From the NCBI RefSeq assembly GCF_036865545.1, contig NZ_CP142208.1, positions 1,178,001-1,242,000 on the forward strand: a DNA stretch of 64,000 nt. Direction: 5' to 3'. Position 1 is the stretch's first letter. Each line of letters starts with the position of its first letter. Source of the stretch: Erwinia sp. E_sp_B01_1. Lineage in GTDB: Bacteria; Pseudomonadota; Gammaproteobacteria; Enterobacterales; Enterobacteriaceae. Shown one piece after another: positions 23,446-59,671 of this stretch. The notes beneath the pieces were generated by a model that was given only the letters and a program-made list of their open reading frames with translations, was not told the DNA's origin and ran no database searches. The position numbers and the translations under genes were made by a program.

Positions 23446-24101
23446 CGTCTTAGTAAGTCCGTCGGTCAGGGTGAGCATCAGCTTTCCATCCTTACCGGAG
23501 TTGAGCTGGTTGTCAAACCGGCTGAAACCATTGCGCTGATTGGTGAGTCCGGTTCCGGCAAATCCACTCTGCTGGGTATTCTGGCCGGGCTGGATGATGG
23601 TTCTGAAGGCGAGGTCTTTCTGTTGGGCTCGCCGCTGCACTCGATGGATGAAGAGCAACGAGCCGGACTAAGAGCAAAGAGCGTTGGCTTCGTTTTCCAG
23701 TCATTTATGCTGGTGCCAACGCTGAATGCGCTTGAGAACGTGCAACTGCCAGCGTTGCTGAGGGGGAGAGCGATCGCCACAGTCGGGAACAGGCTCAGGC
23801 CCTGCTGGCGCAGCTTGGCCTGGCCGAACGTCTGACGCATCTGCCTTCTCAGCTTTCGGGCGGCGAGCAGCAGCGTGTGGCGCTGGCGAGAGCCTTCAAT
23901 GGCCGTCCGGCACTGCTGTTTGCTGATGAACCCACGGGCAACCTTGACCGCAAAACGGGCGACCGCATTGCCGATCTGCTGTTCTCCCTCAACCGTGATT
24001 TTGCCACCACGCTGATCCTTGTGACCCACGATGAGCAACTGGCCGCACGCTGTGACCGGCGGCTGCGCGTGCGTGACGGCAAGCTGTGGGAGGAAGCATG
24101 A
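23416..24101 (+). pseudogene. ybbA: ABC transporter ATPase YbbA, interrupted by a one-base deletion
   Basis: A LolD/MacB-type ATPase, about 228 residues when intact. The first frame holds Walker A GESGSGKST and the Q-loop and runs to 23835; the signature LSGGEQQ, Walker B and H-loop are in another frame ending at 24101. The frames join if one G is added to the five-G run at 23762-23766, giving a protein that aligns end to end with E. coli YbbA. All active-site motifs survive. I therefore suspect a sequencing error rather than decay. It partners with YbbP. Confidence 0.85.
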
Positions 24102-26514
24102 TCTGGCGCTGGTTCTGGCGTGAGTGGAAATCGCCTTCGCTGCTGATTGTCTGGCTGGCTTTGACGCTGGCCGTGGCCTGCGTTCTGGCACTGGGCTCGC
24201 TCAGCGACAGGATGGAAAAGGGATTAACCCAGCAAAGCCGCGATTTTATGGCGGGCGACCGCACGCTGCAAAGCTCGCGCGAAGTGCCGCAGGCGTGGCT
24301 GGATGAGGCAAGAAAACAGGGATTACAGGTTGGGCGTCAGCTCACTTTTATGACCATGACTTTTGCTTCTGATACGCCGCAGCTCGCCTCCGTCAAAGCG
24401 GTGGACGATCTCTATCCGATGTTTGGCAAGCTGGCTACGGAGCCTGCGGGATTGAAACCGGCTGCCGGTACCGTACTGGCTGCGCCGCGTTTGCTGGCCC
24501 TGCTTAACCTGAAAGCAGGCGGAAATCTGGATGTGGGTGATACCACGCTGCGCATTGCAGGCGAGGTGGTACAAGAGCCGGACGCGGGCTTCAATCCTTT
24601 CCAGACGGCTCCCAGACTGTTAATGAATCTGGCCGACCTTGGTAAAACCGGGGCCATCCAGCCAGGAAGTCGCGTGACCTGGCGCTATAAATTCGCCGGT
24701 ACGCCGCAGCAATTAAGTCAGTATGACCGTTTTATCGAGGCCAATATCAAACCCGAGCAGCGCTGGATAAGCGTGGAAAATTCAGAAGATGCGCTGGGGA
24801 AATCCATGCAGCGGGCGCAACAGTTCCTGCTGCTTTCGGCTCTGCTGACGCTGATGCTGGCCATAGCGGCGGTTGCCGTAGCGATGAATCACTACTGCCG
24901 CAGTCGTTATGATCTGGTCGCGGTGTTGAAAACCCTGGGGGCTAACCGGGCAGCGCTGAGAAAACTGATTGTCGGGCAGTGGCTGGCTGTGCTGCTACTG
25001 GCGGCGGTGTGCGGCGGAGCAATTGGCATGGGCTTTGAAGTAATTTTACTTCAGATGCTCAAGCCGGTTCTGCCCGGCGAATTGCCTCCGGCCAGCGGCT
25101 GGCCGTGGCTGTGGGCGATTGGCTCACTCTTTATCATCTCGCTGCTGGTGGGCATGCGTCCCTATCGCTTACTGCTGGCTACTCAGCCTTTGCGTGTATT
25201 GCGGCGGGATGCTGTCGCCAACGTCTGGCCGCTGAAATTCTACCTTCCGGCGATGGCTCTGGTGGTCATTGCGCTGCTGGCCGCGCTGGTCGGTGGCAGC
25301 AAACTGCTCTGGGCACTGGTGGGCGGTATTGTCCTGTTGTCGGCGCTGTTAGGTGCAATTGGCTGGGGCGGTCTGATACTGCTTCGCCGGTTTAGCGTGC
25401 GCAATCTGGCGTTCCGGCTGGCCATTAATCGCCTGTTAAGGCAGCCCTGGACCACGCTCAGCCAGCTGGCGGCCTTCTCTCTGTCATTTATGCTGCTGGC
25501 ATTGCTTCTGGTGATGCGCGGCGATCTGCTGGATCGCTGGCAGCAGCAGCTCCCCCTGGCAGCCCAAACTATTTCCTGCTCAATATGACCCAGGAGCAGG
25601 TTCCACAGGTAAAAACCTTTCTTGAGCAGCATAAGGTGGTGCCACAGACCTTCTATCCGATCGCCAGAGTCAGGCTCACCGGCATCAATCATCAACCTGC
25701 CGATCCGGCGCTGGATGGTTCCCTGAACCGCGAACTGAATCTGACCTGGCAGGAGCAGTTGCCGGATCACAACCCTCTGACGGCTGGAAGCTGGCCGCCG
25801 AAGCAGGGGGAAGTGTCGATGGAAGAGGAGCTGGCAGGCCGGCTTAAGGTGAAACTGGGCGACACCCTGACGTTCACCGGGGATACCCAGGATTTCACCG
25901 CCAAAATTACCAGCCTGCGTAAAGTCGACTGGGAGAGCCTGAAGCCGAATTTCTTCTTTATCTTCCCGCGTGGCGCGCTGGTAGATCAGCCACAAACCTG
26001 GCTTACCAGCTTCAGGCTGGAGGGCAACAATCCGCTGCTGGCACAGCTTAACCGACAGTTCCCGACGTTGAGCCTGCTGGATATCGGCAGCATTCTGCGT
26101 CAGATTGGGCAGGTGCTGGCGCAGGTGAGCCAGGCGCTGGAAATCATGGTGATCCTGGTGACCGCCTGTGGTGTGCTGCTGCTGCTGGCGCAAATCCAGG
26201 TTGGCATGCGTCAGCGCAGGCAGGAGCTGGTGGTTTACCGCACGCTGGGAGCGAGTAAAAAACTGCTGCGTGGAACCCTGTGGTGTGAGTTTGCATTACT
26301 GGGCGCCGTTTCAGGTATTGCCGCGGCCATCGGGGCAGAAGCCGCGTTATGGGGCCTGCAACGTAAAGTCTTCGACTTCCCCTGGGAGCCGGACTACCTG
26401 CTATGGATTATTCTGCCCTTAACCGGTGCCGTTTTGCTTTCCCTGTGTGGCGGCTGGCTTGGGGTTCGTTTATTAAAAGGTAAAGCCCTTTTCCGGGGCT
26501 ACAACGCCGCATAA
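24098..26514 (+). pseudogene. ybbP: ABC transporter permease YbbP, interrupted by a one-base deletion
   Basis: A FtsX/MacB-family permease, about 805 residues when intact (E. coli 804). The first frame runs from ATG 24098 (overlapping the ybbA stop) to 25588, the second from about 25557 to 26514. Adding one C to the five-C run at 25552-25556 restores a single frame that continues E. coli YbbP without a gap. Membrane segments and the large periplasmic domain are otherwise intact. A sequencing error is likely, especially as ybbA next door shows the same kind of defect. Confidence 0.85.
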
Positions 26515-26518
26515 ACAG

Positions 26519-26545
26519 AGGCCGGTAGCTGCCGGCCTGCTATTT
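26519..26545 (+). terminator. Terminator after ybbP
   Basis: A 7-bp stem AGGCCGG / CCGGCCT follows ybbP by 4 bp, then a modest T-tract (TATTTTC). Confidence 0.7.
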
Positions 26546-26617
26546 TCATCATGATTAATGACACTACTACAGCATAACCTCCGTGCAGTCGGGTGCACTG
26601 CCGCACCGGATAGTGCT

Positions 26618-26651
26618 TTGTGGGCGGTCAACGTTAGAGGTACTATTAACG
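26618..26651 (+). promoter_or_regulatory. luxI promoter with a 20-bp dyad over the -10
   Basis: TTGTGG (26618-26623) and TACTAT (26641-26646) are 17 bp apart. A 20-bp dyad (26632-26651: CGTTA arms, centre GTAC) overlaps the -10. Lux-type boxes are 20 bp long. A site over the -10 suits an EsaR-like repressor better than an activator. Confidence 0.45.
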
Positions 26652-26678
26652 TAATTTCTGGCTAAGGATGGAGTAAGT

Positions 26679-27338
26679 ATGTTGCACCTGCTTGATGTGA
26701 ATTACAGTTTCCTGTCTGAACTGAAATCCAGAGAACTCTTTACTCTAAGAAAGAAAGTTTTTAAAGACCGGCTCAACTGGCTGGTAAATGCTGAGAACAA
26801 TATGGAGTCGGATGAATATGATAATCCCAGAACGACCTATATTTTTGGCATTTATCAGGAAGTCTGTATCTGCAGCCTGCGATTCATAAATATCAAATAT
26901 CCGAATATGATTACCGGCACCTTCAAATCCTGGTTTAAAAATGTGGAGCTGCCTCAGGGGAATTATGTGGAAGCCAGCCGCCTTTTTATTGACAAGGATC
27001 GTGTTCAGGCGCTGGAGCTTCGTCAGCAGCCTGTCAGCGCTTTGCTGTTTCTTTCCATGATTAACTATGCCAGACATTATGGATATGAGGGAATCTATGC
27101 CATCGTCAGCCATCCGATGTATCTGATTTTCAAAAAATCCGGCTGGGGAATTTCGGTAGTGGAACAGAGTCTGTCTGAAAAAGACGAAAATATTTATCTG
27201 ATATTTATGCCCGTTGATAAAGGGAACCAGCAAACGCTGATGGCGCTGGTAAAAGCAAAGGTTCCCGCCTTAACGTGCCGGCTGAACAGCTGGCCGCTCT
27301 CATTCCCCGTCAGGCTGCACCGGACGGATAAGGTTTAG
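26679..27338 (+). CDS. Acyl-homoserine-lactone synthase (LuxI/EsaI family)
   Basis: A 219-residue LuxI-type synthase that makes an N-acyl homoserine lactone from SAM and acyl-ACP. The invariant residues are visible: R in LRKKVFKDRLNW (about residues 24-35) and D-E in MESDEYDNP (about 43-51). A catalytic-site Arg appears in CSLRF, and E-SR in VEASRLF. It most resembles EsaI/ExpI/SmaI enzymes of enterobacteria. GGAG precedes the ATG. It converges on its luxR partner, overlapping by 39 bp at the 3' ends, the EsaI/EsaR arrangement. Acyl-chain length cannot be told from sequence. Confidence 0.92.
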   Translation: MLHLLDVNYSFLSELKSRELFTLRKKVFKDRLNWLVNAENNMESDEYDNPRTTYIFGIYQEVCICSLRFINIKYPNMITGTFKSWFKNVELPQGNYVEASRLFIDKDRVQALELRQQPVSALLFLSMINYARHYGYEGIYAIVSHPMYLIFKKSGWGISVVEQSLSEKDENIYLIFMPVDKGNQQTLMALVKAKVPALTCRLNSWPLSFPVRLHRTDKV

Positions 27339-28043
27339 CTCAATACCCAGTCGGATGGCGTGTTTAGCGTTGGACACGCCTAATTTCTTCACCGCATTGC
27401 CCATGTGATATTTCACAGTGGTCAATTTAATGCCCAGAATCAACGCAATTTCCTGGTAAGATTTACCTACGCTGGCCCAGTAAATAATTTCATTTTCGCG
27501 GTTGGAAAATATCTCGCGGGTATTCATCTCATTGAAGTCGGCTTTTCTTGCCAGCTCCTGATAAAGCTGTGACAGTTTTTCATGAGCCGTAATCAATAAC
27601 ATCTGAAGCTTGCTTCTGTTATTATGAATTAACTCTTCGATATTATCGTCGCAGTGTTTATCTAACATCAGAGAGAGCACCACCAGATTATTATTATGGT
27701 CATGCAATACAAAGGTGTAGCCGTTAATGATGTCGTGATTACGTGCCATATCAAATAATTTTGGCACTTTCACGCCCTGATTCAGCATCAGGTTTTCATC
27801 CCAGGAAAAGGGGGTCAGTCGGTAAAGCGCGGTAATTAATACCGGATCGATGAACTGGAAATTGTTATCGATATAGACTTTAAACCACTCCGGACGGTTT
27901 GAGATAATCGAGAAATCCGCCGGATTCCTTTTGCTCATGATGGCGTAGGCGTATTTGATGTTGTTGAACTGGACCAGTTTACGTTCCAGATAATCCTTGA
28001 TTGACGTGTTAATAGCTTGATTATCAAAAAATAACTTAGCCAT
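27300..28043 (-). CDS. LuxR-family quorum-sensing regulator (EsaR-like)
   Basis: A 247-residue LuxR-type regulator with an N-terminal autoinducer-binding domain (residues about 20-160; conserved W and Y in NRPEWFKVYIDNNF and D-P in FQFIDPVLIT). A C-terminal GerE/LuxR helix-turn-helix (SNRENEIIYWASVGKSYQEI to TVKYHM) follows. I chose the ATG at 28043 because GGGAGA lies seven bases upstream. The convergent position next to luxI suggests an EsaR-like regulator, many of which bind DNA without signal and are released by AHL. Confidence 0.9.
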   Translation of the reverse strand: MAKLFFDNQAINTSIKDYLERKLVQFNNIKYAYAIMSKRNPADFSIISNRPEWFKVYIDNNFQFIDPVLITALYRLTPFSWDENLMLNQGVKVPKLFDMARNHDIINGYTFVLHDHNNNLVVLSLMLDKHCDDNIEELIHNNRSKLQMLLITAHEKLSQLYQELARKADFNEMNTREIFSNRENEIIYWASVGKSYQEIALILGIKLTTVKYHMGNAVKKLGVSNAKHAIRLGIELNLIRPVQPDGE

Positions 28044-28473
28044 GTCATTATCTCCCTGGGAAATAGTGCTTCCATCGTGAATCAGAGACTTTAACATAAA
28101 TTTAATCTACCGGCTAACCCTACAGGGCAGAGCAACGGTGTGAAAAGCATCAAAAGAGAAAGGAAAGGTAACAGGGAAGAAAACAAGGATCGCAGGCTGG
28201 AAAGGCAGGGGGTAAGGGTGAACCAGATCGCGCCTGAACAGTTTTAAAGGTGAATTTAATTTACCATTTTAAACTCTTCGGTTTGGTACTGGTTCCCTTG
28301 GTGTTGGCAAAATAAAATCTAAAGTACTAATAATTAACTATATTTATTTTTTTGGTTCGCCAATACAATACGATGTTTGAATCATTAATGGTAGCCATAC
28401 TTAAGTACAGTTAAGCACTGTTCTTTTTCACCCGCGAGTGGCAGCAGTAACTGTTTATCGCGGGTTGCCTGCC
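28044..28473. other. AT-rich intergenic region upstream of luxR
   Basis: This 430-bp gap between the luxR start and the purK stop holds no ORF I can support. It carries the luxR promoter region, a half-conserved lux-box-like sequence at 28107-28127 and a TACTTAAGTA palindrome at 28398-28407. The stretch 28250-28420 is markedly AT-rich compared with its neighbours. Confidence 0.6.
28107..28127 (-). promoter_or_regulatory. Candidate lux-type box upstream of luxR
   Basis: Read on the minus strand, the left half CCTGTAGG matches the consensus half-site of lux boxes; the right half is poor. It lies 64-84 bp before the luxR start, a position that would suit autoregulation. Confidence 0.3.
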
Positions 28474-29544
28474 TTAAACGTCCAGTTTTTCCACTGCCCA
28501 GGCAATGCCGCTGGCATAGTCCGCAGGCAATTGCGGGACCAGCGCCTTAAGGGCCGCCTGCAATGACGTTTTACTGACATCAGAGAGGTTAAGGTGGCCA
28601 ACTTTGCGCCCTGGCCGCACTTCTTTCTCATACCAGTGCAGATGCACCAGCGGCTCATTAAGCCAGTCCAGGTTTACCGCCGTCCCAATCAGGTTAACCA
28701 TTACTGAAGGGGTGCTGACCACAGGCCGGGGCAGTGGCAAATCCAGAATAGCGCGCAGATGCAGCTCGAACTGGCTGATCGAAGCCCCGTTCTGCGTCCA
28801 GTGGCCGCTGTTGTGCACCCGGGGAGCCAGTTCATTAATCAGCAGGCCTTCCGGTACCACAAAGCACTCCATCGCCATAACACCGACATACTTCAGCTCA
28901 TGCATAATGGCTGAGAGCATCGATTCGGCCTGCTTTTGCAGAGCGGCGTCTGGCTCAGGCAACACCACGCTGGTGCGTAAAATGCCATCCTGATGGAGGT
29001 TGTGCGTCAGGGGATAAAATACAGTGCTGCCGTCATGGGCACGGGCGCCAACCAGAGAAACTTCTCCAGAAAAGTTAATGCCCTGCTCAACAATGCACTC
29101 ACCGTAGCAGTCGGCAGGCAGAGCATCTGTTTCATTCGCCCGCAGGCGCCACTGACCACGGCCGTCGTAACCGCCCGTGCGGCGCTTGACGATAGCCAGT
29201 TCGCCCAGATCTGAGAACACCTGAGGCCACTCTGCGGCATCCGCCAGCAGCTGCCACGGCGCGGTAGCAAGACCAAGCTGGTCCAGCAGCTGCTTTTGTG
29301 TCAAACGATCGGCCAGGCGGGGAAAGATATCGCGGTTCACAAAGGCGCTGTGGGTTGCCAGCTCGCGCGTCAGAGCCGTTTCCGGCCAGCGCTCAATTTC
29401 AGCGGTGATCACGCTTTGCTGAACAGGCAGTGCTTCGGGGTCGGCATCCAGTCCGACAGGGTAGACGGCAATGCCCAGCGGCTCACCGGCCTGGCGCAGC
29501 ATGCGGCCAAGCTGACCATTTCCTAATACGCAAACCGGCTTCAT
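28474..29544 (-). CDS. purK: 5-(carboxyamino)imidazole ribonucleotide synthase
   Basis: An ATP-grasp enzyme of purine synthesis that carboxylates AIR to N5-CAIR with ATP and bicarbonate. It has 356 residues (E. coli 355). The N-terminal [10 protein letters not shown] and the ATP-grasp segments [11 protein letters not shown] and [13 protein letters not shown] are conserved. It overlaps the purE stop by 4 bp (ATGA), so purEK is one operon. Confidence 0.97.
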
Positions 29545-30050
29545 GCTTCCTCCCGCGGATCCGGGTTGTTCAGCACTTCGTCAGTCTGGGCCTGACGCCA
29601 GTTGGCCAGACGGGAAGAGAGATCTTTATCGTGGATCGCCAGGATCTGCGCCGCCAGCAGGGCAGCATTGGCTGCGCCGGCTTTGCCAATCGCCAGGGTG
29701 CCAACCGGAATACCGCGTGGCATCTGTACGATGGAGTAAAGGCTGTCGACACCGCTCAGCGCTGCGCTTTGCACCGGTACGCCCAGCACCGGCACCAGGG
29801 TTTTCGCTGCCAGCATTCCCGGAAGATGAGCCGCGCCGCCTGCGCCAGCAATAATGACCTGAATGCCGTTATCCGCCGCCTGTTCGGCAAAGCTGAACAG
29901 CTTGTCCGGCGTGCGGTGGGCCGAGACCACTTCGCACTCGAATGGGACAGCCAGGGCAGTAAGTATCTCCGCGGCAAATTGCATGGTTGCCCAGTCACTT
30001 TTGGAACCCATAACAATAGCAATGCGGGCCGGTGCGGCGTTGGAAGACAT
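29541..30050 (-). CDS. purE: N5-CAIR mutase
   Basis: PurE converts N5-CAIR to CAIR. The ATG at 30050 gives 169 residues, the E. coli length, with MGSKSDW near residue 14 and SAHRTP near 45 forming the active site. AGGAG lies ten bases before this ATG; an upstream in-frame ATG lacks family similarity. A PurR box lies about 95 bp upstream. Confidence 0.97.
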
Positions 30051-30144
30051 CGGGGTCTGACTCCTGTGATTGTACAAACGTCATCTGACAGCCTCTGCGG
30101 TGGTCAGATGGGAAGGGCAAAGAGAATATCACGACTCTGCGGCA

Positions 30145-30160
30145 AGGAAAACGTTTGCTC
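30145..30160 (-). promoter_or_regulatory. PurR operator of purEK
   Basis: The minus strand reads GAGCAAACGTTTTCCT, nearly the PurR consensus ACGCAAACGTTTTCNT. PurR with hypoxanthine or guanine would repress purEK. Confidence 0.9.
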
Positions 30161-30197
30161 AGGCCTCAACAGGCCCTTTTGGGCACTATTTGACGCT

Positions 30198-30923
30198 TCA
30201 GAAGGGGAAAGAGATCAGGGTAGTTTCACTGGGGCTGACCCGAATCATCGAGCCTTCGCTGTGCCAGGCACCCAGCACCAGCCGTTCAGCAGGCTGACCA
30301 TTAATGTCCAGCGCGTGGACAGCAGGGCGATGGGTATGGCCGTGGATCAGATACCGGACCTGATGACGCGCCATGGCTTGTGTGACTGCTTCAGCATTGA
30401 CGTCCATGATGCGCAGATCTTTGCTGCTGTTAGCCTGTTTGCTGCCTGCACGCATTTTTGCAGCAATTCGCTGACGCACAAATAGAGGCAGGGCCAGAAA
30501 TACTTTTTGCAGCCAGGGTTGGTGAACCTTGCGACGAAAACGCTGATAGCCCTGATCGTCAGTACACAGCGTGTCACCGTGCATTATCAGGATCCGCTTG
30601 CCATAAAGCTCAGGCACCTGCTCCTCAGGAAGCAGGGTCATTCCGCTTGCTGCAGCAAAGCGTTTACCGATCAGAAAATCACGGTTACCGTGAATGAAAT
30701 AGCAGGGCACGCCCTGTTGCTGAAGCGCTTTCAGCGCGGAGGCAATCTCAGCGTGAAGCGGATCAGGATCGTCATCGCCGATCCAGGCTTCAAACAGGTC
30801 GCCAAGGATATAGAGCGCATCCGCCTGAGGCGCTTCACGCCGTAAAAAAGCAAGAAAACCGGCAGTGATTGCCGGTTCTTCTTCACACAGATGGAGATCT
30901 GCGATAAACAGCGTATGAGGCAT
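30198..30923 (-). CDS. lpxH: UDP-2,3-diacylglucosamine pyrophosphatase
   Basis: LpxH cleaves UDP-2,3-diacylglucosamine to lipid X in lipid A synthesis. It has 241 residues (E. coli 240). Metallophosphoesterase motifs are [26 protein letters not shown] and HGHTHRP. The start overlaps the ppiB stop by one base. Confidence 0.97.
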
Positions 30924-31417
30924 TATTCGCTGACGGTGACTTTCTGGATCACAACGTCTTCTTTTGGCACGTCCTGATGCATACCGCTACGGCCAGTAGA
31001 AACCGCTTTGATTTTCTCAACCACGTCCATGCCTTCAACCACTTCAGCGAACACGCAGTAACCCCAGCCCTGCAGGCTTTCGTCACGGAAGTTCAGGAAG
31101 TCGTTGTCTGCCACGTTAATAAAGAACTGGGCAGTAGCGGAGTGAGGTGCCTGAGTACGGGCCATCGCCAGCGTACCCTTGGTGTTTTTCAGACCGTTGC
31201 TGGCTTCGTTCTGGATTTCTGCTTTGGTATCTTTCTGCTTCATGCCGGGTTCAAAGCCGCCGCCCTGAACCATAAAGCCGTTGATAACGCGGTGGAAGAT
31301 TGTGTTGTCGTAAAAACCTTCACGGCAGTAATCCAGGAAGTTGGCAACGGTGGCCGGCGCTTTATCGTCGAAAGTTTTGATGACGATATCGCCATGATTT
31401 GTCTGGAAAGTGACCAT
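30923..31417 (-). CDS. ppiB: Cytosolic peptidyl-prolyl cis-trans isomerase B
   Basis: A cyclophilin of 164 residues, equal to E. coli PpiB, with no signal peptide. Core motifs [14 protein letters not shown] and [17 protein letters not shown] are present. The ATG at 31417 is the family start; the frame extends upstream without similarity. Divergent from cysS. Confidence 0.97.
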
Positions 31418-31647
31418 ATTCTCATCCTGTAAAGGTTGGGGGTTTTTGATAAACCGGTGCTGGCGACATTCAGTGGCCAGCACACTATTAATAGACGGCT
31501 TTTATATCACAAAATGTGATGACGAGTCAGCATCGCTGCATAACAGCCGCCGGCATAACCTTGCTTTGCATGGCGCTTCCGTTAACAATACGGCAGAATA
31601 TGCTTTTCACCGGTTATCACCCGCACACGTCAAAACGGAATGTCTCA

Positions 31648-33128: not shown

Positions 33129-33141
33129 CTGCGGGGCAACC

Positions 33142-49681: not shown

Positions 49682-49682
49682 G

Positions 49683-50710: not shown

Positions 50711-50879
50711 AGTAATCCCACTAAAGCGCCCCGATCACCTGCAAGAGGTGAGTAACGGTCTGTCCCTACTCAAAACATTCCACGCAACCGGCGGACACAA
50801 CCATCAGACCGTGAGCTTGATTATGGCAAAGATGGCAGATGACCTGGCAAAAGCGCAGGAGCAGATGAAAGGGAGGTAG
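50700..50879 (+). CDS. Small prophage protein (59 aa)
   Basis: A 59-codon frame overlapping the preceding stop by 11 bp. The segment HNHQTVSLIMAKMADDLAKA is helical. Its stop (TAG) lies 3 bp before the GTG of ninB. Function unknown. Confidence 0.6.
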   Translation: MTAEVIPLKRPDHLQEVSNGLSLLKTFHATGGHNHQTVSLIMAKMADDLAKAQEQMKGR

Positions 50880-50882
50880 GCC

Positions 50883-51326: not shown

Positions 51327-51701
51327 ATGACAGCACGTGAACGCATCAAAGAATTCCTTTCAGGGCAAAGGTTCGTATCAACCAAAATTCTCCATGACCA
51401 TATTCAGTCACTTGGATTTAACCGGGTCAGTTCCTGCAGCGCTCTATCGAAGATGGTTTCCAGGGGCGAAGTTATCAGTAACGGCCATCACATCCACACC
51501 TATGTGAAGCTGAACGAAGCCTACAAGCCAAAGGCTGCCTCAGCCCGCCAGAAAGCTAATCACGCGAATCTGGGCAAGATAATGGGAAGGGTGCCACGCA
51601 AACCAAAAACAGAGGCCGGTGATAACGACATCTTCGAACTGTGCCGCAAACACAGCAATATTTATGCAATGGACAAGCTTCTCCGCGAGGTGAGGGTATG
51701 A
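51327..51701 (+). CDS. Winged-helix-like prophage protein (124 aa)
   Basis: The N-terminal region (ERIKEFLSGQRFVSTKILHD to SALSKMVSRGEVIS) has the spacing of a winged helix. A C-terminal Asp/Arg-rich part follows. It lies directly after ninB without a gap. Not named. Confidence 0.6.
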   Translation: MTARERIKEFLSGQRFVSTKILHDHIQSLGFNRVSSCSALSKMVSRGEVISNGHHIHTYVKLNEAYKPKAASARQKANHANLGKIMGRVPRKPKTEAGDNDIFELCRKHSNIYAMDKLLREVRV

Positions 51702-52018
51702 ACTTAACAGCAGAACATAGCATGGTTGAATCATTGCTTGGGCAGGCTGCAAAGGTAATTTCTGAGATGGTTCAGAAAGCAAACGCCAGGGCAGAGCAGG
51801 AAAAGGCGGTGGCCTTCAAAGGGACAGTGTCATCCATTCCAGAAATGCTTGTCAGCGCCCGGGGAAATCAAACGCTTGTCGCTGAGCTATTGGGAGCAAG
51901 CAGGGGGACAATCAGGAAATACGCCAGAGACTTCAAGGCAGAGCATCACGCCATTGTTAACGGAACCCTCATGATTAACCGGGGCCATCTTGGTGAGCAC
52001 AAGAGAATTAAAGCATGA
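51698..52018 (+). CDS. ninH: NinH-like protein with N-terminal extension
   Basis: A 106-residue protein from ATG 51698 (ATGA overlap). The C-terminal half (SIPEMLVSARGNQTLVAELL to GTIRKYARDF and HAIVNGTLMINRG) aligns with lambda NinH (68 residues), a helix-turn-helix protein. The N-terminal 45 residues are an extra helical part. Confidence 0.8.
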   Translation: MNLTAEHSMVESLLGQAAKVISEMVQKANARAEQEKAVAFKGTVSSIPEMLVSARGNQTLVAELLGASRGTIRKYARDFKAEHHAIVNGTLMINRGHLGEHKRIKA

Positions 52019-52188
52019 GGCAGAGAATAAGCCCCACACAGAAAGCAATCGACCAACTCATATTCCAGCCTACCCGCAGAAGCCGCAATAAACCCAAGCC
52101 TATCCCGTCAGCGAGTGAAGTAGTAACTCTCGATTATTGCTACCTGCTGTTGAAGGCTAAATGGGACCGTATGCGGAGGACGCGATGA
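52015..52188 (+). CDS. ninE: NinE-like protein
   Basis: A 57-codon gene. The segment TRRSRNKPKPIPSASEV and the basic end KWDRMRRTR match lambda NinE. Overlaps both neighbours by 4 bp. Confidence 0.8.
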   Translation: MRQRISPTQKAIDQLIFQPTRRSRNKPKPIPSASEVVTLDYCYLLLKAKWDRMRRTR

Positions 52189-52334
52189 CTGAACCAAAAG
52201 AACAGGCCTGTTCGGATTGTGGTATGGCCCTGAGCGCTGATGAATCGTGGGTATGTGAGGACTGTTGCGCTTTCTACTCAATGCTTGATCCAAATTCGAA
52301 TATGGCAGGAGACGATGATGGCGAACCTTCGTAA
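52185..52334 (+). CDS. ninF: NinF-like Cys-rich protein
   Basis: A 49-codon gene with a zinc-type arrangement CSDCG...VCEDCC and then LDPNSNM, the order and spacing of lambda and P22 NinF. Overlaps ninE by 4 bp and ybcO by 17 bp. Confidence 0.78.
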   Translation: MTEPKEQACSDCGMALSADESWVCEDCCAFYSMLDPNSNMAGDDDGEPS

Positions 52335-52608
52335 AGAAGCGCGGGGCAGGGAGTGCCAAGTCAGATTGCCGGGCATCTGCAATGGCAACTCTGAAACAGT
52401 AGTACTCGCGCACTACCGGATGGTAGGCATCTGCGGAACAGGCATGAAACCTGATGACCTTTTTGGTGCCTGGGCGTGCTCTGGTTGCCACGATGAGATA
52501 GACAGGCGTACACGTCACTGTGAAGTCACTGAGGCCCGTATAGCGCATCTGGAAGTTGTTATCAGGACACAGGATGCATTACTCAGAGAAGGAAAGGTGA
52601 AGCGATGA
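52318..52608 (+). CDS. ybcO: YbcO-type nuclease (DUF1364)
   Basis: 96 residues, the same length as YbcO in E. coli prophage DLP12, and very similar: LRKEARGRECQVRLPGICNG at the start. CSGCHDEIDRRTRH holds the HNH-like zinc/catalytic residues. It belongs to the RusA-associated nuclease cassette. Confidence 0.9.
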   Translation: MANLRKEARGRECQVRLPGICNGNSETVVLAHYRMVGICGTGMKPDDLFGAWACSGCHDEIDRRTRHCEVTEARIAHLEVVIRTQDALLREGKVKR

Positions 52609-52967
52609 CCGAATATCGAATAGTTCTACCCTGGCCGCCGGGCAACAATCACCTCTTCTCAGTGTTTCGAGGCAGGAAAATCAAAAGCAAGAAAGGCAGG
52701 GAATACACAGCAGCAGTCATCAAGCAAATCACCGAAGCAAATCAGCAATACCTCCTCACCGGCAGCCTGAAAGTAAAAATCACCGCATACCCACCGACAC
52801 GCGCCAGGCGTGACCTGGACAACCTCTTCAAAGCCCCTCTCGACTCACTCACCCAGGCAGGCGTAATAGCCGATGACAGCCTGATTGATGACGTGCGCAT
52901 GGTGCGTGGAGAAGTGAAAAAGGGTGGGCGGCTGGAAGTCCTGATAACTGAACTGGAGGAAGCATGA
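52605..52967 (+). CDS. rusA: RusA Holliday junction resolvase
   Basis: A 120-residue RusA (E. coli 120). LPWPPGNNHLF at the N-terminus, RRDLDNLFKAPLDSL with the catalytic Asp pair near residues 67-70, and the conserved DDSLIDD. Resolves Holliday junctions in the phage recombination pathway. Confidence 0.94.
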   Translation: MTEYRIVLPWPPGNNHLFSVFRGRKIKSKKGREYTAAVIKQITEANQQYLLTGSLKVKITAYPPTRARRDLDNLFKAPLDSLTQAGVIADDSLIDDVRMVRGEVKKGGRLEVLITELEEA

Positions 52968-53575
52968 ATAACGACACTTTGGCACAGTTGGCACAGGTAA
53001 TGCGAAAGTCAGACCTGAAGAAACGATACCTCAAGCCTGTAGCTCTCATCACACCGTTACAATCCACCTGGGTACGCTGCATTCTCGATGTATGGGGAAG
53101 CAAGTACGGCGGCAACGAAGGGCCAGCAGGAGCATCCAGCGTAATCGGTCGTCTGATGATTAGGCAGGAATGGAATGGAAGGGAGAGTGAGCGGATCATG
53201 GAAGTGGTCAACAATCTGCACAAGCAGGGTTACAGCGGCAATGTGCTATTTCTGAAGGCCAAAGAAATCCTCAACCCTCAGAACAGCGTCAGCAATCTTC
53301 TCGACCGCGCCAACGAAACGGAAGATGCCGACTTTGTAGAATCCATCATCACTAAGATATTCGCACCGAACAATCCGATCCGGTATGTAGCTATTAAGCA
53401 TTACTGTGAGCGCAAATGCTCGCAAGATATTGCTAATGAGTTATCCCGTATTACCGGCATGCACTTCGAAAATGCCAAAACCCGAATAAAATGGTGCAGG
53501 CAATTACTTGAGGCTTCCGTTTATCACGCTATAAAGCGAGAAATGAATGGGATAAATCACAAACATGCCGCTTAA
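52964..53575 (+). CDS. Q-like antiterminator (DUF1133)
   Basis: A 203-residue protein in the Q position, last gene of the early right operon. It resembles DUF1133 proteins: WVRCILDVWGSKYGG near residue 35, and a C-terminal helix-turn-helix-like region (RYVAIKHYCERKCSQDIANE to FENAKTRIKWC). A PR'-like promoter and terminator follow 24 and 100 bp downstream, the signature of Q-controlled late transcription. Confidence 0.72.
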   Translation: MNNDTLAQLAQVMRKSDLKKRYLKPVALITPLQSTWVRCILDVWGSKYGGNEGPAGASSVIGRLMIRQEWNGRESERIMEVVNNLHKQGYSGNVLFLKAKEILNPQNSVSNLLDRANETEDADFVESIITKIFAPNNPIRYVAIKHYCERKCSQDIANELSRITGMHFENAKTRIKWCRQLLEASVYHAIKREMNGINHKHAA

Positions 53576-53598
53576 GTTCGTTAACGTGAAAATAAATA

Positions 53599-53627
53599 TT
53601 GAAAACGTCACTTCGACCTGGTAAATT
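53599..53627 (+). promoter_or_regulatory. Late promoter PR'
   Basis: TTGAAA (53599-53604), an exact 17-bp spacer, TAAATT (53622-53627). Start of transcription would be near 53634. Confidence 0.75.
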
Positions 53628-53677
53628 TATGCCATGCTCGGATGACAAAGACAGAAGAGCGGCAGATTACTGAAAAT

Positions 53678-53709
53678 AAGGCCTGAGTTTAGCGACTTGG
53701 GCCTTTTTT
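53678..53709 (+). terminator. tR'-like terminator
   Basis: Stem AAGGCC / GGCCTT with a 16-base loop followed by TTTT. It would stop PR' transcripts after about 75 nt unless the Q-like protein acts. Confidence 0.8.
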
Positions 53710-54146
53710 ATTGGGTTTTCGTCATGGTTAGCAACTTTTGCGGGTTTTAAGAAACGAACCAAATAAAGTAAATGCAAACGATGATGTAGTTCTGATGGCG
53801 GCTTAACAGCCTGTAAGTCAGTGAGGTCTTCCAATCCCTCATAACCGAATTTGGCGCAGTGGCCCGCTGTGATTAATAATGGGCACCCAACAGGTAAGAG
53901 CATTAGGCAGACGGCATCTCTCACCAAAGATTAGCGATGAGTGAAATGACAGTGAGTGAATGTGACGACGCTCGTCAGTGCTCTTTCCTGTGGGTAACAA
54001 CGGGCATGTCGCCTTAGTAAATCCCAACTCGGTGCTGGATTCGCGACTAGCCGTCCACTCCACGAAACGGGGTACACAACTGACAAGCAGCTTGACGAAG
54101 TGGCAACAGATACGCCGCTCGTGTTGTGAAGCAGGCTGCTTTTCGT
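53710..54146. other. Late leader region without supported genes
   Basis: About 440 bp follow tR' before the next structured element. Frames are short on the plus strand; minus-strand frames cross both terminators and have no protein-like character. I see no gene here. It is the untranslated leader of the late transcript. Confidence 0.55.
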
Positions 54147-54317
54147 TGTGGTGTAACTCAATTCCCGCCTGGCGGTGGGTTAGATGGGTAGAGTAATGCA
54201 TCAACCAGTTAGCTGGCAGGGCAGGCATGATGCTTATGCTGAACCTGAGTGTCAGTTCGAGTCTGACCACCACAACACCTAATACCGAAGGTCGCCATTA
54301 GAGCGGCCTTTTTTTAT
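54147..54317 (+). ncRNA. tRNA-like structured RNA with terminator
   Basis: The 3' part has a perfect T-arm (GTCAG-TTCGAGT-CTGAC, 54251-54267), then CACCACA (54268-54274), which pairs fully with TGTGGTG at 54147-54153. U8-A9 and a D-stem ACTC/GAGT (54156-54159, 54191-54194) are also in order. The D-loop is about 20 nt too long and the anticodon region about 33 nt too long, so it is not a normal tRNA. A terminator (AAGGTCGC / GCGGCCTT plus T-run) ends it at 54288-54317. It may be a phage tRNA decayed by insertions or an unfamiliar RNA. Confidence 0.4.
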
Positions 54318-54430
54318 TCCAGTTTTCGCCCCTACCAATTAACTCGACCCTCAAATATTCCTGTGTGGTAGCGGGCGTCTTTCATTCAACAGCAAAAGAG
54401 CCGGTCTGACCGGGATCGCCGGAGACGGCT

Positions 54431-54838
54431 ATGGCATTCGATATAACCAAAGAGTTCTTCATTGGTGCTGGCGGCTCCCTGGCCGCATCCATTGCGGGAG
54501 TCATGGCGTTTGGCCGTTACTGGGTAAGCAGCAGGGCTCAGAACGCAAACGACAAATCACAAATCAATATGCTCCAGTGGCAAATGGATGAGTTAAAGCG
54601 CTCCAAGGAAGAGAACAAGCAACTGCGTGATGAGATTGAAGATCGTGATGAGACGATAAGAAAGTATTGGGCTGAGATATCAGAAACCAAAACCACTCTT
54701 CAGATAATCCAGATATCCCAAAAGCACCTCGAAGAACAAAACACCTTACTTAAGGAGCAGGTGAAAGAGCTGACCACTTCTAACATGGAGATGGTTAAGC
54801 AACTCATCGAGCTTCGAGAATCCCTGAGGGTTCAATGA
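54431..54838 (+). CDS. Membrane/coiled-coil protein, first gene of the late operon
   Basis: A 135-residue protein with one N-terminal hydrophobic segment (FFIGAGGSLAASIAGVMAFG) and a long coiled coil (about 40-130). GGAGA precedes the ATG. It lies just before the lysis genes and could be a holin-related or antiholin protein; no direct match. Confidence 0.55.
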   Translation: MAFDITKEFFIGAGGSLAASIAGVMAFGRYWVSSRAQNANDKSQINMLQWQMDELKRSKEENKQLRDEIEDRDETIRKYWAEISETKTTLQIIQISQKHLEEQNTLLKEQVKELTTSNMEMVKQLIELRESLRVQ

Positions 54839-55074
54839 TGATCAAGAACTCCCAAGGTGAAACCATACTGACCTGGCAAATGCTGGTGATTATTTCCTTA
54901 ACGTCATTCGCAATATTCCTTGGCGGGGTTTCATCTGGTTACTTCTACTTTCGTGCTGAGTACCTGCCCAAGGCAGAGGCCCGCGACAAGGTAGTGAACG
55001 AAATCAAGAAGCAGGTCGATCAGCTTCCGACCCAGAAAGAACTCAAGCAGGTTGTTAAGGAGGATTCTAAGTGA
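54835..55074 (+). CDS. Single-pass membrane protein in the lysis region (79 aa)
   Basis: One membrane helix at about residues 15-40, then a charged helix (RDKVVNEIKKQVDQL). ATGATG at the start overlaps the upstream stop. It may assist the holin; role unproven. Confidence 0.55.
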   Translation: MMIKNSQGETILTWQMLVIISLTSFAIFLGGVSSGYFYFRAEYLPKAEARDKVVNEIKKQVDQLPTQKELKQVVKEDSK

Positions 55075-55538
55075 GCCAAGCAATCCAGATCCTCAATTTT
55101 GAGGAAGGGTACAAAGAATCCCCATACCTCGATACGCTCGGTTACCCCACTGTTGCAGGCGGCGTGCGGATAGGGCCCAAAGGTGCCAGCCTGACAAATT
55201 ACACCTTCACCGTTCCTCGTGCTGTTGGTGATGTGTGGAAGCAGTTGATTCTGGATGGAAAGATTTACGAGATGAACAACCGGCAGAATATCGCAGCAGC
55301 ACTCAAAGCGTGTAACCCGGCTCGGGCAGACATTCTCTACAGCATGGGATATCAGCTTGGCGTCGATGGTCTGGCAGCATTCAAGAACACTCTGGTTCTC
55401 ATCTCTAACGGCAACTTCACTGGGGCTGCTAACGAGATGCTCAAGAGCCTGTGGGCCAAGCAAACGCCTAAGCGTGCCCAGCGTCACGCAGAAGTAATGC
55501 GCACTGGTAGCTATGACGCATACAAGGGGCTGATATGA
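55071..55538 (+). CDS. T4-type lysozyme (endolysin)
   Basis: A 155-residue glycoside hydrolase of the T4 lysozyme class (GH24). The triad fits: Glu in NFEEGYKE near residue 11, Asp in YLDTLGYPT near 20, Thr near 25. No signal or SAR helix, so it needs a holin for export. GTG start at 55071 overlaps the previous stop. Confidence 0.85.
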   Translation: MSQAIQILNFEEGYKESPYLDTLGYPTVAGGVRIGPKGASLTNYTFTVPRAVGDVWKQLILDGKIYEMNNRQNIAAALKACNPARADILYSMGYQLGVDGLAAFKNTLVLISNGNFTGAANEMLKSLWAKQTPKRAQRHAEVMRTGSYDAYKGLI

Positions 55539-55879
55539 CATTCGCTATCTGGCTCCTGATTGTGCTTATCGCAATCATCGGTGTGCTGCTGATCCGTAAA
55601 TACTCCTCGCTTGAGTTTGTAGCTCACGCCCGGCTGCTGTTTAAAGCGTGGTCGGTATGGCTGGCCTCTCTGGGTTCAGCATTAAGCGCCTGGGTGCAAT
55701 CTTTCCCTGATGCTGCAATGAATGGCTGGAACATGCTTCCCCCTGACATTAAGTCATTCCTGCCTCAGAACTACCTCGGCATGATTGGCGCTTTCATGGT
55801 GGCAATGGCCGTCATCTCCCAGTTCGTTCGCCAGCACAAGCTGGTAGAGCAAAAGCAGGAAATGGAGCGCAGGCCATGA
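55535..55879 (+). CDS. Putative holin
   Basis: A 114-residue protein with two membrane helices (residues about 3-22 and 83-103) and a linker with KAWSVWLASLGSALSAWVQS. It is ATGA-coupled to the lysozyme and is followed by the Rz gene, which fits a holin. The family name is uncertain. Confidence 0.7.
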   Translation: MTFAIWLLIVLIAIIGVLLIRKYSSLEFVAHARLLFKAWSVWLASLGSALSAWVQSFPDAAMNGWNMLPPDIKSFLPQNYLGMIGAFMVAMAVISQFVRQHKLVEQKQEMERRP

Positions 55880-56172
55880 GCGAGATAATGACGCTCTTAA
55901 CCGGCGCATGGGGTCACCTGGCAGGCGGACTGGCAATAGTCGCCGCTCTCGCGCTTTCATGGTTCGGCGGAAAAAAGATTGGCACCACGCAGACACAGGC
56001 TGAAGCTGACGTTAAAGCGGCTAAGGTCGAATCTGCTCAGGTATCGGCTGTAGCTGAAAAGCAGAAAGAAAACACACAGGCGGTGAAGGATGTACAGCAA
56101 AGCAATTCTGCTCTCACTGATAGCGCTGCTCGCGACAAGTTGCGCCAGTCCCAATACAACCGGACAGAGTAA
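55876..56172 (+). CDS. Rz-like inner-membrane spanin
   Basis: A 98-residue protein with an N-terminal membrane helix (GGLAIVAALALSWFGG) and a long Ala/Lys/Glu/Gln-rich coiled coil reaching into the periplasm. The Rz1-like gene lies partly inside its 3' end, the diagnostic layout of a spanin pair. Confidence 0.82.
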   Translation: MSEIMTLLTGAWGHLAGGLAIVAALALSWFGGKKIGTTQTQAEADVKAAKVESAQVSAVAEKQKENTQAVKDVQQSNSALTDSAARDKLRQSQYNRTE

Positions 56173-56320
56173 CCCCACAACTATCGCTGATTCCAGCTGC
56201 ACCCTGTTTGGCCCCATATACACCTATGGTAAAGACGCCGAACTGATGGATATCCGCACCGTCCGCGAGATAAACACGCACAACGACACTTACGATCGCG
56301 TGTGTGGAGAAAAGAAATGA
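56090..56320 (+). CDS. Rz1-like outer-membrane lipoprotein spanin
   Basis: A 76-residue lipoprotein in another frame, starting inside the Rz-like gene (83-bp overlap). The lipobox LLATSC places the lipidated Cys near residue 18. The mature part has two more Cys. With the Rz-like protein it would fuse inner and outer membranes at lysis. Confidence 0.85.
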   Translation: MYSKAILLSLIALLATSCASPNTTGQSNPTTIADSSCTLFGPIYTYGKDAELMDIRTVREINTHNDTYDRVCGEKK

Positions 56321-56571
56321 ACCCTCTTAAATGGCTCCTGACTAAAGCGGAGCCCGTAACCAAGGAAGCACCAGTGACCGATATCACCGCATCAGAAGCA
56401 GCACCAGAAACCAACGTTGAAACCCCAGCAGTTGAGCCAGCTCCAGTAGCAGTAGTGAAAACTGGCGTGAAGGACTTCGAAGCCGCACTGTCATTCGTAG
56501 AGAGCGGCGTTGCTAAGTTGGGTGAAGCTGCCAAAGCAGAGCTGAAGGCGCTGGCTCAGAAGTACCTGTAG
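56317..56571 (+). CDS. Small Pro/Ala/Glu-rich prophage protein (84 aa)
   Basis: ATGA-coupled to the spanin gene. A low-complexity acidic stretch with PVTKEAPVTD and VETPAVEPAPVA leads into a helical C-terminus. Not recognised; position next to the lysis genes is the only clue. Confidence 0.55.
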   Translation: MNPLKWLLTKAEPVTKEAPVTDITASEAAPETNVETPAVEPAPVAVVKTGVKDFEAALSFVESGVAKLGEAAKAELKALAQKYL

Positions 56572-56639
56572 CTCATTACAAGAGCCATCCACTTTTCCCG
56601 GTGGCTCTGATAATGACTTACGTATCTGTGGAGGATGCC

Positions 56640-57611
56640 ATGGTTCAGCGAGTAATGACGACAGGTGGTTATCCCGTAAAGATGCCTGACGCTAACGAAA
56701 TCTCTGACGATGTGACAGGCGACCTGATGGGCCGTCAAATCAGCATCAATCAGATTGCCGGTGCGAGTGACGCAGTAAACAGCGTGCTTCATGCAAAAAC
56801 AGCAGAAGAGATACGCAATGCTGCAGGCATTCAGGAATCCCAGATTGCCGTGAAGGGTGATGCTGGTAAGTCAGCATATGAAATAGCTGTTCAGGAAGGG
56901 TTTGAAGGAAGCCAAACCGAATGGCTTGAGTCGCTTCATGGCAGTGACGGCATTGATGGCATTGATGGAAAAAATGGTACCGATGGCCGAGACGGAACAG
57001 ACGGAAAAAATGGATCTGACGGAAACTCTGCCTATCAGATTGCCCGTGATGCTGGCTATGGCGGCACAGAGACACAGTGGTTAGCAAGTCTCAATGGTTA
57101 TGACGGTAAAGATGGGATTAACGGAGTTGATGGAAAAAACGGTGCAGACGGAAAGGACGCCTTGCCGGGGAAAGATGGCTTGAACGGCAGTAACGGTAAA
57201 GACGGGCTGAACGGAAAATCCGCTTACGAGTTAGCTGTATCCGGTGGTTTTTCTGGTACGCAAACTCAATGGCTGGCTTCGCTGAATGGTACGAATGGCA
57301 AAGATGGTACGAATGGGAAGGATGGCATCAATGCTACGCCAATCCTCTTTGAAGCCATCGATTCTAAAGTCGTCACAGCCGGCACAAAGGTGGCAATCAA
57401 GTTCACCAAAACATATTCAACTCCCCCTGTAGTCTCGCCAATACCAACCTGGTCAGGATTGCAGATGAACATTGGTTCAGCCTCAGAAGTTACAACGACT
57501 GGATGTAACGTCACCGTATTGCAGTCACTTGGCACACTCCTGTTATCAGGTGGGCCATTTGGCAATGCGCCGGCTAACGCAACATTCCGCATGTTCGTGA
57601 TTGGGAGCTGA
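56640..57611 (+). CDS. Collagen-repeat fibre-like protein
   Basis: A 323-residue protein. Three copies of a 25-residue module (SAY.IA...GF.G...EWL.SL.G) at about residues 77, 129 and 193 alternate with Gly-X-Y runs of the GKDG/GTNG type, which would form collagen-like triple helices. A beta-rich C-terminal domain follows. This is typical of trimeric tail fibres or adhesins, but here it sits between lysis genes and terminase. I chose ATG 56640 because GGAGG lies five bases upstream; the frame starts earlier at 56601. Confidence 0.75.
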   Translation: MVQRVMTTGGYPVKMPDANEISDDVTGDLMGRQISINQIAGASDAVNSVLHAKTAEEIRNAAGIQESQIAVKGDAGKSAYEIAVQEGFEGSQTEWLESLHGSDGIDGIDGKNGTDGRDGTDGKNGSDGNSAYQIARDAGYGGTETQWLASLNGYDGKDGINGVDGKNGADGKDALPGKDGLNGSNGKDGLNGKSAYELAVSGGFSGTQTQWLASLNGTNGKDGTNGKDGINATPILFEAIDSKVVTAGTKVAIKFTKTYSTPPVVSPIPTWSGLQMNIGSASEVTTTGCNVTVLQSLGTLLLSGGPFGNAPANATFRMFVIGS

Positions 57612-57787
57612 TGATGGTTAAGTTCAATATCATATGCCACTGCAAAATCAAATGGTGGGTAAAGCCACTTATTGGGATTGTTAAAGCATGGGTTCTTGTC
57701 ACCAGAAAGAATATCGACGTAGACAGGCTGGCTGATTTTGTAGCCAGTCACGGCATAAAAAAACAATACATCACAAAAGAGATTTAA
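57611..57787 (+). CDS. Small prophage protein (58 aa)
   Basis: A 58-codon frame sharing bases with the fibre stop and ending immediately before terS. Basic and Trp-rich (KIKWWVKPLIGIVKAWVLV), so it may associate with membranes. Function unknown. Confidence 0.55.
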   Translation: MMVKFNIICHCKIKWWVKPLIGIVKAWVLVTRKNIDVDRLADFVASHGIKKQYITKEI

Positions 57788-58315
57788 ATGGCAAAGCTCA
57801 CCGACAAACAAGAGCTGTTTGCCCGTGAGTACCTGAAAGACCTCAATGCTACACAGGCAGCTATCAGGGCGGGTTACAGCGAGAAGACCGCTCAGATGCA
57901 ATCAAGCCGTCTGCTATCAAATGTTATGGTCCAAGATTGCATTGCAGCGCTGAAGGCCGATCGCAATGAAGAAGTCGGTATAGATGCAGCCTACGTGCTT
58001 CGCCGCCTGGTAGAGATAGACCAGATGGATGTTATCGATATTCTCCAGCCAAATGGCGAGCTGAAGCCGATTAAGGACTGGCCTAAGACGTGGCGCACTA
58101 CCCTTTCGGGAATGGATGTCACTGAGATGTCAGGCGACGACTCAGGATTCCTGAAAAAGATTAAGTGGCCTGATAAGGTGAAAAACCTCGAGCTTCTTGG
58201 TAAGCATGTGACTGTTCAAGCTTTCAAAGAGAACATCAAGTCAGAGCATTCCGGAAATATCGGCATCAACCTGAATAAAACCCTCACTGAGCTATTCGAC
58301 GATGACAGCGATTAA
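57788..58315 (+). CDS. terS: Terminase small subunit
   Basis: A 175-residue TerS of the terminase_2 family; the N-terminus LTDKQELFAREYLKDLNATQ and the helix AAIRAGYSEKTA are the DNA-binding part. It recognises pac/cos DNA and passes it to TerL. The stop overlaps terL by 14 bp. Confidence 0.92.
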   Translation: MAKLTDKQELFAREYLKDLNATQAAIRAGYSEKTAQMQSSRLLSNVMVQDCIAALKADRNEEVGIDAAYVLRRLVEIDQMDVIDILQPNGELKPIKDWPKTWRTTLSGMDVTEMSGDDSGFLKKIKWPDKVKNLELLGKHVTVQAFKENIKSEHSGNIGINLNKTLTELFDDDSD

Positions 58316-59671
58316 CCCGATATTTAAACCCTTCGTGAAGCCATCCCGCTACAAAGTGGCAAAGGTGGTCGCGGGTCAGGTAAAAGCTGGACGATTGCTC
58401 GCTTACTGGTAGAAATAGCCAGGCGGGGGAATTATCGCTTTCTCTGCGCCCGCGAACTCCAGAACAGTATCAGTGACTCAGTTATCCGCCTGCTGGACGA
58501 CACAATAAACCGTGAAGGCTATCAGGCAGAGTTTGAAGTGCAGAGAGCTAACATCCGCCACCTGATTACCGGTAGCGAATTCATGTTCTACGGCATCAAG
58601 AACAACCCGACCAAAATTAAGTCGCTCGAAGGCATCGACATATGCTGGATGGAAGAGGCTGAAGCAGTATCCAAAGAGTCGTGGGATATCCTGATCCCCA
58701 CCATTCGTAAGCCTGGCTCTGAGATATGGGTCAGCTACAACCCAAAGAATATTCTCGACGATACGCATCAGCGTTTCGTTATCGCACCTCCTGATGATAT
58801 CTGCTTGCTGACTGTGAACTACAGCGAGAACCCCTGGTTCCCTGATGTGCTTCGGCTGGAGATGGAGGAGTGCAAGCGCAAAGACTATGACCTCTATCTG
58901 CACATATGGGAAGGCGAGCCGGTTGCTGATAGTGACATGGCAATCATCAAGCCTTCGTGGATTGCTGCTGCTGTGGATGCTCACAAGGCGCTTGGATTTG
59001 ATATTGCCGGAGAGAAGCGTGTTGGATTCGATGTGGCCGATGAAGGTGAGGATAGCAACGCCACCACTCTACGCCATGGTTCTGTAGCTATCGACGTGCA
59101 GAACTGGGACAGAGGCGATGTGATTGAATCCTCTAATCGCGTGAACCTCTATTCAGAGCAGCAGAAAGCCGATGAGATTATTTATGACTCCATCGGTGTT
59201 GGTGCTGGCGTTAAGGCCCAGTTAGGCCGCATAGCCAAAATTAATATTCAAGGCTTCAATGCTGGCGGTGCCGTGCTTCACCCTGAAGCTGACTACATGC
59301 CCGGTAAAAAGAACAAAGACATGTTCTCGAACATCAAGGCTCAAGCATGGTGGCATGTTCGTGATCGCTTCTACAAAACATGGCGTAGCATAGAGGCTCG
59401 CAAAGCCGATCCGAATTGCACGCTCGAATACAGCCCTGATGAGCTGATAAGCCTGTCCTCTGATATCCAGAAGCTCGAATACCTAAAAGCTGAACTGTCC
59501 CGCCCATGGGTGGACTACGACGGTAACGGCAAGGTTAAGGTTGAGAGTAAGAAGGATATGAAGAAGCGCGGCATCCCATCACCAAACATGGCTGACTCAC
59601 TGATTATGGCGTTCGCTCCACTTATCAGGAAGCCAATGGTCATCGACCCAAGCCAACTCAGGAGAATTTAA
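58302..59671 (+). pseudogene. terL: Terminase large subunit, interrupted by a one-base deletion
   Basis: An ATPase-nuclease that packages DNA, 456 residues if intact. The ATG at 58302 opens [11 protein letters not shown] and a normal lead, then loses frame just before Walker A. Adding one A to the AAA at 58361-58363 yields [11 protein letters not shown] (Walker A). The rest, including WMEEAEAV (Walker B) and the nuclease motif around GFDVADEG, is open to 59671. All motifs are intact, so a base-calling error is likely. Confidence 0.87.

Follow-up and report, generated by a model that had tools for sequence, protein, structure and literature searches.

Programmed ribosomal frameshifting itself is already known, and a conserved frameshift in the tail assembly chaperone gene (G/GT) of tailed phages, said to have been described by Xu, Hendrix and Duda in 2004, reportedly fixes the ratio of the proteins made. 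Both G/GT products have roles. In bacteria, −1 shifts can take place on the tetramer A_AAG, at a relatively low level, as they do, e.g., in IS1222 (according to passages of PMC5009743). For terminase genes, a possible ribosomal bypassing linked to a UUA codon was described in a Streptomyces phage (same passages of PMC5009743), a putative −1 frameshift in terL of the Microbacterium phage vB_MoxS-R1 is called speculation by its own authors, and terL of the Gordonia phage Nyceirae is mentioned as lying in two open reading frames (ORFs) (both in passages of PMC9030533). The present analysis concerns a 64,000-nucleotide (nt) stretch of the genome of Erwinia sp. E_sp_B01_1, i.e., bases 1,178,001–1,242,000 of a single contig of 4,803,726 b (hereafter the window), in which four genes, ybbA, ybbP, cI and terL, are each spread over two frames at the positions named by the initial annotation. 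The frame breaks of the window are here ascribed, with a probability of about 0.82, to two unrelated phenomena, namely sporadic one-base homopolymer losses and a programmed −1 ribosomal frameshift in terL, which encodes the packaging ATPase of the phage terminase.

The candidate shift in terL and the G/GT shift would both be conserved phage frameshifts, in different genes; unlike in G/GT, the unshifted terL product would be a stub of 36 amino acids (aa). The IS1222 transposase, with its G_CGA_AAG, resembles terL in a bacterial −1 shift on A_AAG, whereas terL encodes a phage terminase, its junction forms the Walker A motif, and GCA precedes the AAG (IS1222 from the passages of PMC5009743). In vB_MoxS-R1, as in the window, terL occupies two frames and a −1 shift is proposed; however, that case is a single phage with the slip sequence GGT-AGC, and no stem is mentioned in the passages of section 3.7 of that paper (PMC9030533). 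Recoding is likewise proposed for both the Streptomyces phage terminase and terL of the window, as bypassing in the former (passages of PMC5009743) and as a −1 slip in the latter. No terL case appears in the relevant passages of PMC8008677, PMC3203893, PMC7260188, PMC4168068, PMC7412058, PMC12671138, PMC3711429 and PMC3025963, and the terms sought are absent from PMC10885494. An established recoding of the terL P-loop was not found in the literature searched, which covered few subscription journals and no supplements, and an earlier notice elsewhere is possible.

Split reading frames of terL in viral relatives

The C-terminal piece of TerL has 356 confirmed relatives in viral contigs, of which the best 80 were kept for the counts of viral loci, so that the fractions given here are not population rates. 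In 20 of these 80 loci, representing 19 distinct sequences, terL is split at the same junction position as in the window, while 59 loci are single-frame and one is without a Walker A that could be found. The split loci follow one pattern, in which the 0 frame encodes MT..N..F.PF..P.RYKVAK and the −1 frame takes over from the Walker A motif GGRGSGKS. The junction GCAAAGG is present in all 21 split loci (the window and the 20 viral ones) and is invariant in the 20 aligned sequences, and the exact junction pattern, sought over all viral contigs, occurs in 20 stretches on the same 20 contigs. According to passages of PMC3711429, a frame break that occurs as a singleton points to an error or a recent indel, and clustered breaks may be programmed, a rule that is applied here. 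The terL break, with 20 of 80 viral loci sharing it, is not private to this assembly.

Frame-specific selection was assessed from the codon-position diversity of 20 distinct sequences, i.e., the window and the 19 viral ones. Upstream of the junction, the diversity in the 0 frame is.11/.061/.418 at the three codon positions, and downstream of it the diversity in the −1 frame is.012/0/.305 and then.115/.048/.369. The third-position variability switches frame at the junction, indicating that the translated frame changes there. The stop of the 0 frame follows 48–57 nt past the start of GCA.

The initial annotation had read the terL break as a homopolymer under-call like those in ybbA, ybbP and cI, and the sign and size of the break are indeed alike in all four genes, in a genome that does hold one-base homopolymer breaks. 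However, the same break is found in terL of 19 distinct sequences from other contigs, which have diverged synonymously and show codon-level selection specific to the frame on both sides. The site itself is a run of only three A, no notable homopolymer, and occurs in the related phages as well. The terL part of that claim is thereby refuted, and a common origin of all four breaks as under-calls is scarcely credible.

The two parts of TerL, with 21 and 435 codons, add up to 456 aa, a length that recurs among the listed homologues; one such 456-aa homologue, P0234, lies on a contig equal in size to that of the single-frame locus L210. The Pfam family Terminase_3, together with Terminase_3C below its cut-off, matches at 58538–59671. 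Among six TerL database records that were fetched, five start after the Walker A motif, e.g., a 418-aa record of Cronobacter malonaticus with 71 cluster members, and one, a 446-aa Pantoea record, has its start immediately ahead of the motif and opens with a short −1-frame segment. Their similarity and length suggest that the DNA behind the fetched records would be split as well. In Escherichia coli, 636 of 5,426 genomes hold a relative of terL at 60–80%, none of which covers 80% of the query, and the spans of the records suggest a single frame. Near searches with two other split types gave no match (L202) and 163 E. coli genomes, none covering 80% (L213), and no plasmids were found with a third (L203). 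The split state requires 7 changes on a 77-row TerL tree, at least 4 of which are forced, vs. 17.2 in shuffles.

Predicted stem and proposed mechanism

A consensus fold of the stretch downstream of the slip site predicts a 17-bp stem, CGCGGGUCAGGGAAAAGC with GCUUUCUCUGCGCCCGCG, which begins 5 nt after the AAG. The usual spacing between a slip site and a downstream structure is 5–9 nt. The stem is paired in 99.4% of 323 cells of the alignment: 12 of the 17 pairs are constant, 3 have changes on one side that preserve the pairing, and 2 have one unpaired cell each. In the split loci, 7 of 12 third codon positions within the stem arms show no variation, compared with 2 of 52 outside them (p 3.9e-5). 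In 12 single-frame loci the corresponding counts are 0 of 12 and 0 of 52, but these loci are more diverged and thus provide a weak control for stem conservation. The mean fold z is −2.3 for the 20 split sequences and −0.23 for 61 single-frame ones. Two near relatives of the split type, L214 and L215, are single-frame and carry a synonymous change that breaks one stem pair, which fits a relaxed need for the stem; since both are alike in the stretch shown, they count as one observation. A scan of positions 58200–58700 against Rfam gave no match up to E 5, and a covariance model run on 394 genomes of the order (E up to 1e-6) recovered the own locus and one weak match, which proved single-frame when read. 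No PHROGs family was found for the 36-aa stub.

The locus thus combines conserved overlapping frames, a slip-prone motif, a predicted downstream structure and frame-switching selection, by which programmed −1 ribosomal frameshifts are recognized; on sequence evidence, terL is a strong candidate for such a shift, made of A_AAG and a stem-loop. In the proposed mechanism, the ribosome would start at the ATG at 58302, which overlaps the end of terS, and translate 21 codons, whose conservation was observed. At the AAG of GCA-AAG-G, it would slip one base back on A_AAG, most simply through a move of the lysyl-tRNA from AAG to AAA, and the predicted and conserved 17-bp stem 5 nt downstream may aid this slip. 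Shifted ribosomes would read on through Walker A to yield the 456-aa TerL, whereas unshifted ribosomes would stop 15 codons later and release the 36-aa peptide. The shift would probably serve to limit the packaging ATPase, or to set its timing, with respect to TerS.

Several observations weigh against a programmed shift in terL. On its own, A_AAG is only modestly shift-prone (passages of PMC5009743). There is no compensatory change in the stem, where the 12 never-varying pairs prevail, and its arms were picked on the same alignment that was used to test their conservation. The fold z is moderate, ranging from −0.85 to −4.06 in the split set, with some single-frame loci at about −2. On the TerL tree, split loci are scattered among single-frame ones; gains and losses of the split state, or recombination of the gene start, have occurred. 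The remaining two points bear on specific alternatives. In 11 of the 21 split loci, a rare near-cognate codon (CTG, ATT, ATC or ATA) precedes Walker A in the −1 frame and is a possible start, and databases assign late or unusual starts to TerL, as in the five fetched records that begin after Walker A, both of which would suit a truly split gene whose second frame starts internally to give a shorter TerL that is in use. However, none of the 21 loci has an ATG, GTG or TTG in the −1 frame from the preceding in-frame stop up to Walker A, so that usual internal initiation cannot supply Walker A, and the rarer codons are absent as well in 10 of the 21; in L211, only three codons separate the stop from Walker A. 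The 377–421-aa forms lack Walker A, and the N-terminal frame is under purifying selection. An internal start is for these reasons considered very unlikely. The second point is that the split form was not seen in an isolated phage: among 1,437 phage records that matched, the two closest were read and both are single-frame, as would be expected if split terL were a widespread pseudogene of dead prophages. Decay, in contrast, does not account for first and second codon positions that vary little on either side of an invariant junction, nor for the frozen synonymous sites of the stem, and a pseudogene is on these grounds highly improbable. The features discussed, in terL and in the other three loci, are collected in Table 1.

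Table 1. Coordinates of the frame-split genes and of the proposed recoding elements in the window
Feature	Position	Strand	Basis
terS, terminase small subunit; 3′ end overlaps the terL start	57788..58315	+	Pfam Terminase_2, phrog_51
terL 0-frame ORF, 36 codons + TAG; first 21 codons = TerL N-terminus	58302..58412	+	Codon-position diversity
Proposed slip site GCA AAG G (A_AAG tetramer 58361–58364)	58359..58365	+	Alike in 21/21 split loci
terL −1 frame, Walker A GGRGSGKS to stop, 435 codons	58364..59671	+	Pfam Terminase_3, phrog_3717, phrog_2
5′ arm of predicted stem, 5 nt past slip site	58370..58387	+	Consensus fold
3′ arm of predicted stem	58437..58454	+	Consensus fold
ybbA, ABC-transporter ATPase, two frames	23416..24102	+	Pfam ABC_tran, comparison with relatives
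ybbP, FtsX-like permease, frame split near codon 490	24098..26514	+	FtsX matches, intact 805-aa P0001
cI-like prophage repressor, helix-turn-helix (HTH) + Peptidase_S24, broken after ~9 codons	45611..46242	−	Pfam, viral relatives

Frame breaks in ybbA, ybbP and cI

The ybb region of the window has a match in all 37 genomes of the genus that were searched (the own genome included), and a comparison with two relatives confirmed that a single base is missing from ybbA and from ybbP, in each case at the run named by the initial annotation. In ybbA, positions 1–80 of the ABC_tran profile fall in the first piece and positions 76–136 in another frame, and the gene is open over at least 220 codons in 78 of 80 relatives (of the other two, one is cut and one has 187 codons). 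The two pieces of ybbP, ORFs of 500 and 309 aa that each bear FtsX, both match one 805-aa protein, and 76 of 80 relatives are open throughout, two being cut by the locus end and two being shorter at other codons (639 and 755). The nearest named relative of the YbbP piece is that of Erwinia typographi, with 92% identity. A search with the first YbbP piece revealed an intact 805-aa YbbP, P0001, on another contig of 4,803,247 b. P0001 matches the first piece without a difference (486 of 486 residues) and likewise the second (320 of 320), the two pieces together spanning it; a second 805-aa protein differs from P0001 at 4 residues. P0001 may derive from another version of the assembly or from a close strain, and its contig suggests that nearly the same strain has been assembled a second time. 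With 80 relatives examined for each gene and an intact YbbP at hand, both breaks are private to this assembly; the case for an assembly error is strong for ybbP, and such an error is likely for ybbA.

Frame breaks were then counted in three 400-kb stretches (1.2 Mb) of the genome compared with the relative G007, the first stretch being compared with G018 as well. Of 672 gene places in the genome, 45 matched in more than one frame. A filter dropped 29 of these 45 rows, as short end segments (maybe due to over-long reference ORFs) or for a segment below 70% identity, and left 16 clear internal breaks, all of which are one-base losses with no gain; ybbA was unrecovered in this comparison and is thus absent from the 16. 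In the relatives, the filter dropped 20 of 23 rows for G007 and 13 of 13 for G018, leaving 3 counted breaks in 655 places for G007, all one-base gains and thus of opposite bias, and none in 280 places for G018 (one stretch only). The genome differs from G007 both in the number of breaks (p 0.004) and in their direction (p 0.001). Among the rows of the genome that were dropped, at least two (stretch C, 139161 and 303269) would be gains by their printed frames; for the counted breaks, the earlier statement that all lose a base and none gains one holds beyond the four genes.

At the 15 break sites that were located, the run length is 4 (2 sites), 5 (6 sites), 6 (5 sites) or 7 (2 sites), so that 13 of 15 lie at runs of at least 5, vs. 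4.5% of random positions. In the second stretch, 7 of 9 breaks fall within ~60 kb (G000:C1, about 3.88–3.94 Mb), and this clustering suggests local trouble, as if the consensus quality were locally poor, rather than an even error. A whole-genome scan found ABC_tran in two pieces not only at ybbA but also in two further ABC ATPase genes that are split between frames (G000:C1:529012-529454 and 1676255-1676658), so that frame breaks occur outside the window too. The one-base losses are consistent with a long-read consensus, and residual homopolymer-length errors occur in long-read-only bacterial assemblies (passages of PMC8812927); this genome, presumably from a long-read platform, would share the residual run-length errors of those assemblies. 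Sporadic one-base homopolymer losses in the assembly would account for the splits in ybbA and ybbP, in other genes of the chromosome and, probably, in cI.

The prophage that occupies 35528–64000 of the window adjoins a tRNA-Arg (tct) gene. Its left part resembles the Erwinia phage vB_EhrS_59 (87.6% over 12% of the query), in which CI, Cro and N are annotated. In cI, the Peptidase_S24 half is open and the HTH start lies in another frame. None of 77 viral relatives is broken, the HTH being read in one frame (51 by pattern and 26 by inspection of the printed translation), which favours a private change in cI. A conserved frameshift was considered for cI too and was ruled out by the same 77 continuous relatives. 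The flanks of the cI site, sought as a pattern with the run length left free, had no match in viral contigs, and a search for the cI region across 295 genomes of the family gave, apart from its own locus, 71% identity at best. An assembly error is fairly probable for cI.

Some results count against assembly errors, at least in a general form. Runs of at least 5 are overall no rarer in the genome than in its relatives, and with long runs not depleted, the errors appear sporadic and partly clustered rather than a general under-calling. The contig of P0001 is 479 b shorter, not longer, than that of this genome, a difference that exceeds run lengths alone. A 132-aa C-terminal form of cI is found on 6 contigs, the longest of which is equal in size to the contig of this genome, and the best intact form is 91% identical among the 120 matches listed. 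The breaks in ybbA, ybbP and cI might be genuine recent mutations of the strain, as the recurring short cI, the lack of a near-identical intact cI among the listed matches, and the chance that the contig with the intact YbbP belongs to another strain would allow. Nevertheless, the 16:0 bias to one-base losses at runs in otherwise conserved genes and the identity of the intact YbbP along its full length make this improbable. Of the homopolymer under-calling that the initial annotation proposed, the biased one-base loss at runs, with ybbP as its clearest case through an identical intact protein, is thus retained; the general form and the inclusion of terL are not, and for cI the 77 unbroken relatives support the proposal while the short form on 6 contigs and the 91% limit speak against it.

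Consequences of the proposed terL recoding

A simple rule emerges from the comparison of the two kinds of break: a break at a run that is private to one assembly is suspect, and a break that diverged relatives have in common, and across which selection switches frame, is biology. If terL is indeed recoded, pipelines for frameshift correction could wrongly “fix” a real signal, and database TerLs of this kind, e.g., the 71-member Cronobacter malonaticus cluster, would be without an ATPase motif on paper. A core motor protein of phages would then be under translational recoding at its catalytic P-loop. Judged from the sequences, it is quite likely that a clade of enterobacterial temperate phages obtains its packaging ATPase only via an obligatory −1 frameshift that builds Walker A at the junction, so that the terminase supply would be set by slippage, with the 36-aa peptide being maybe a by-product or a regulator.

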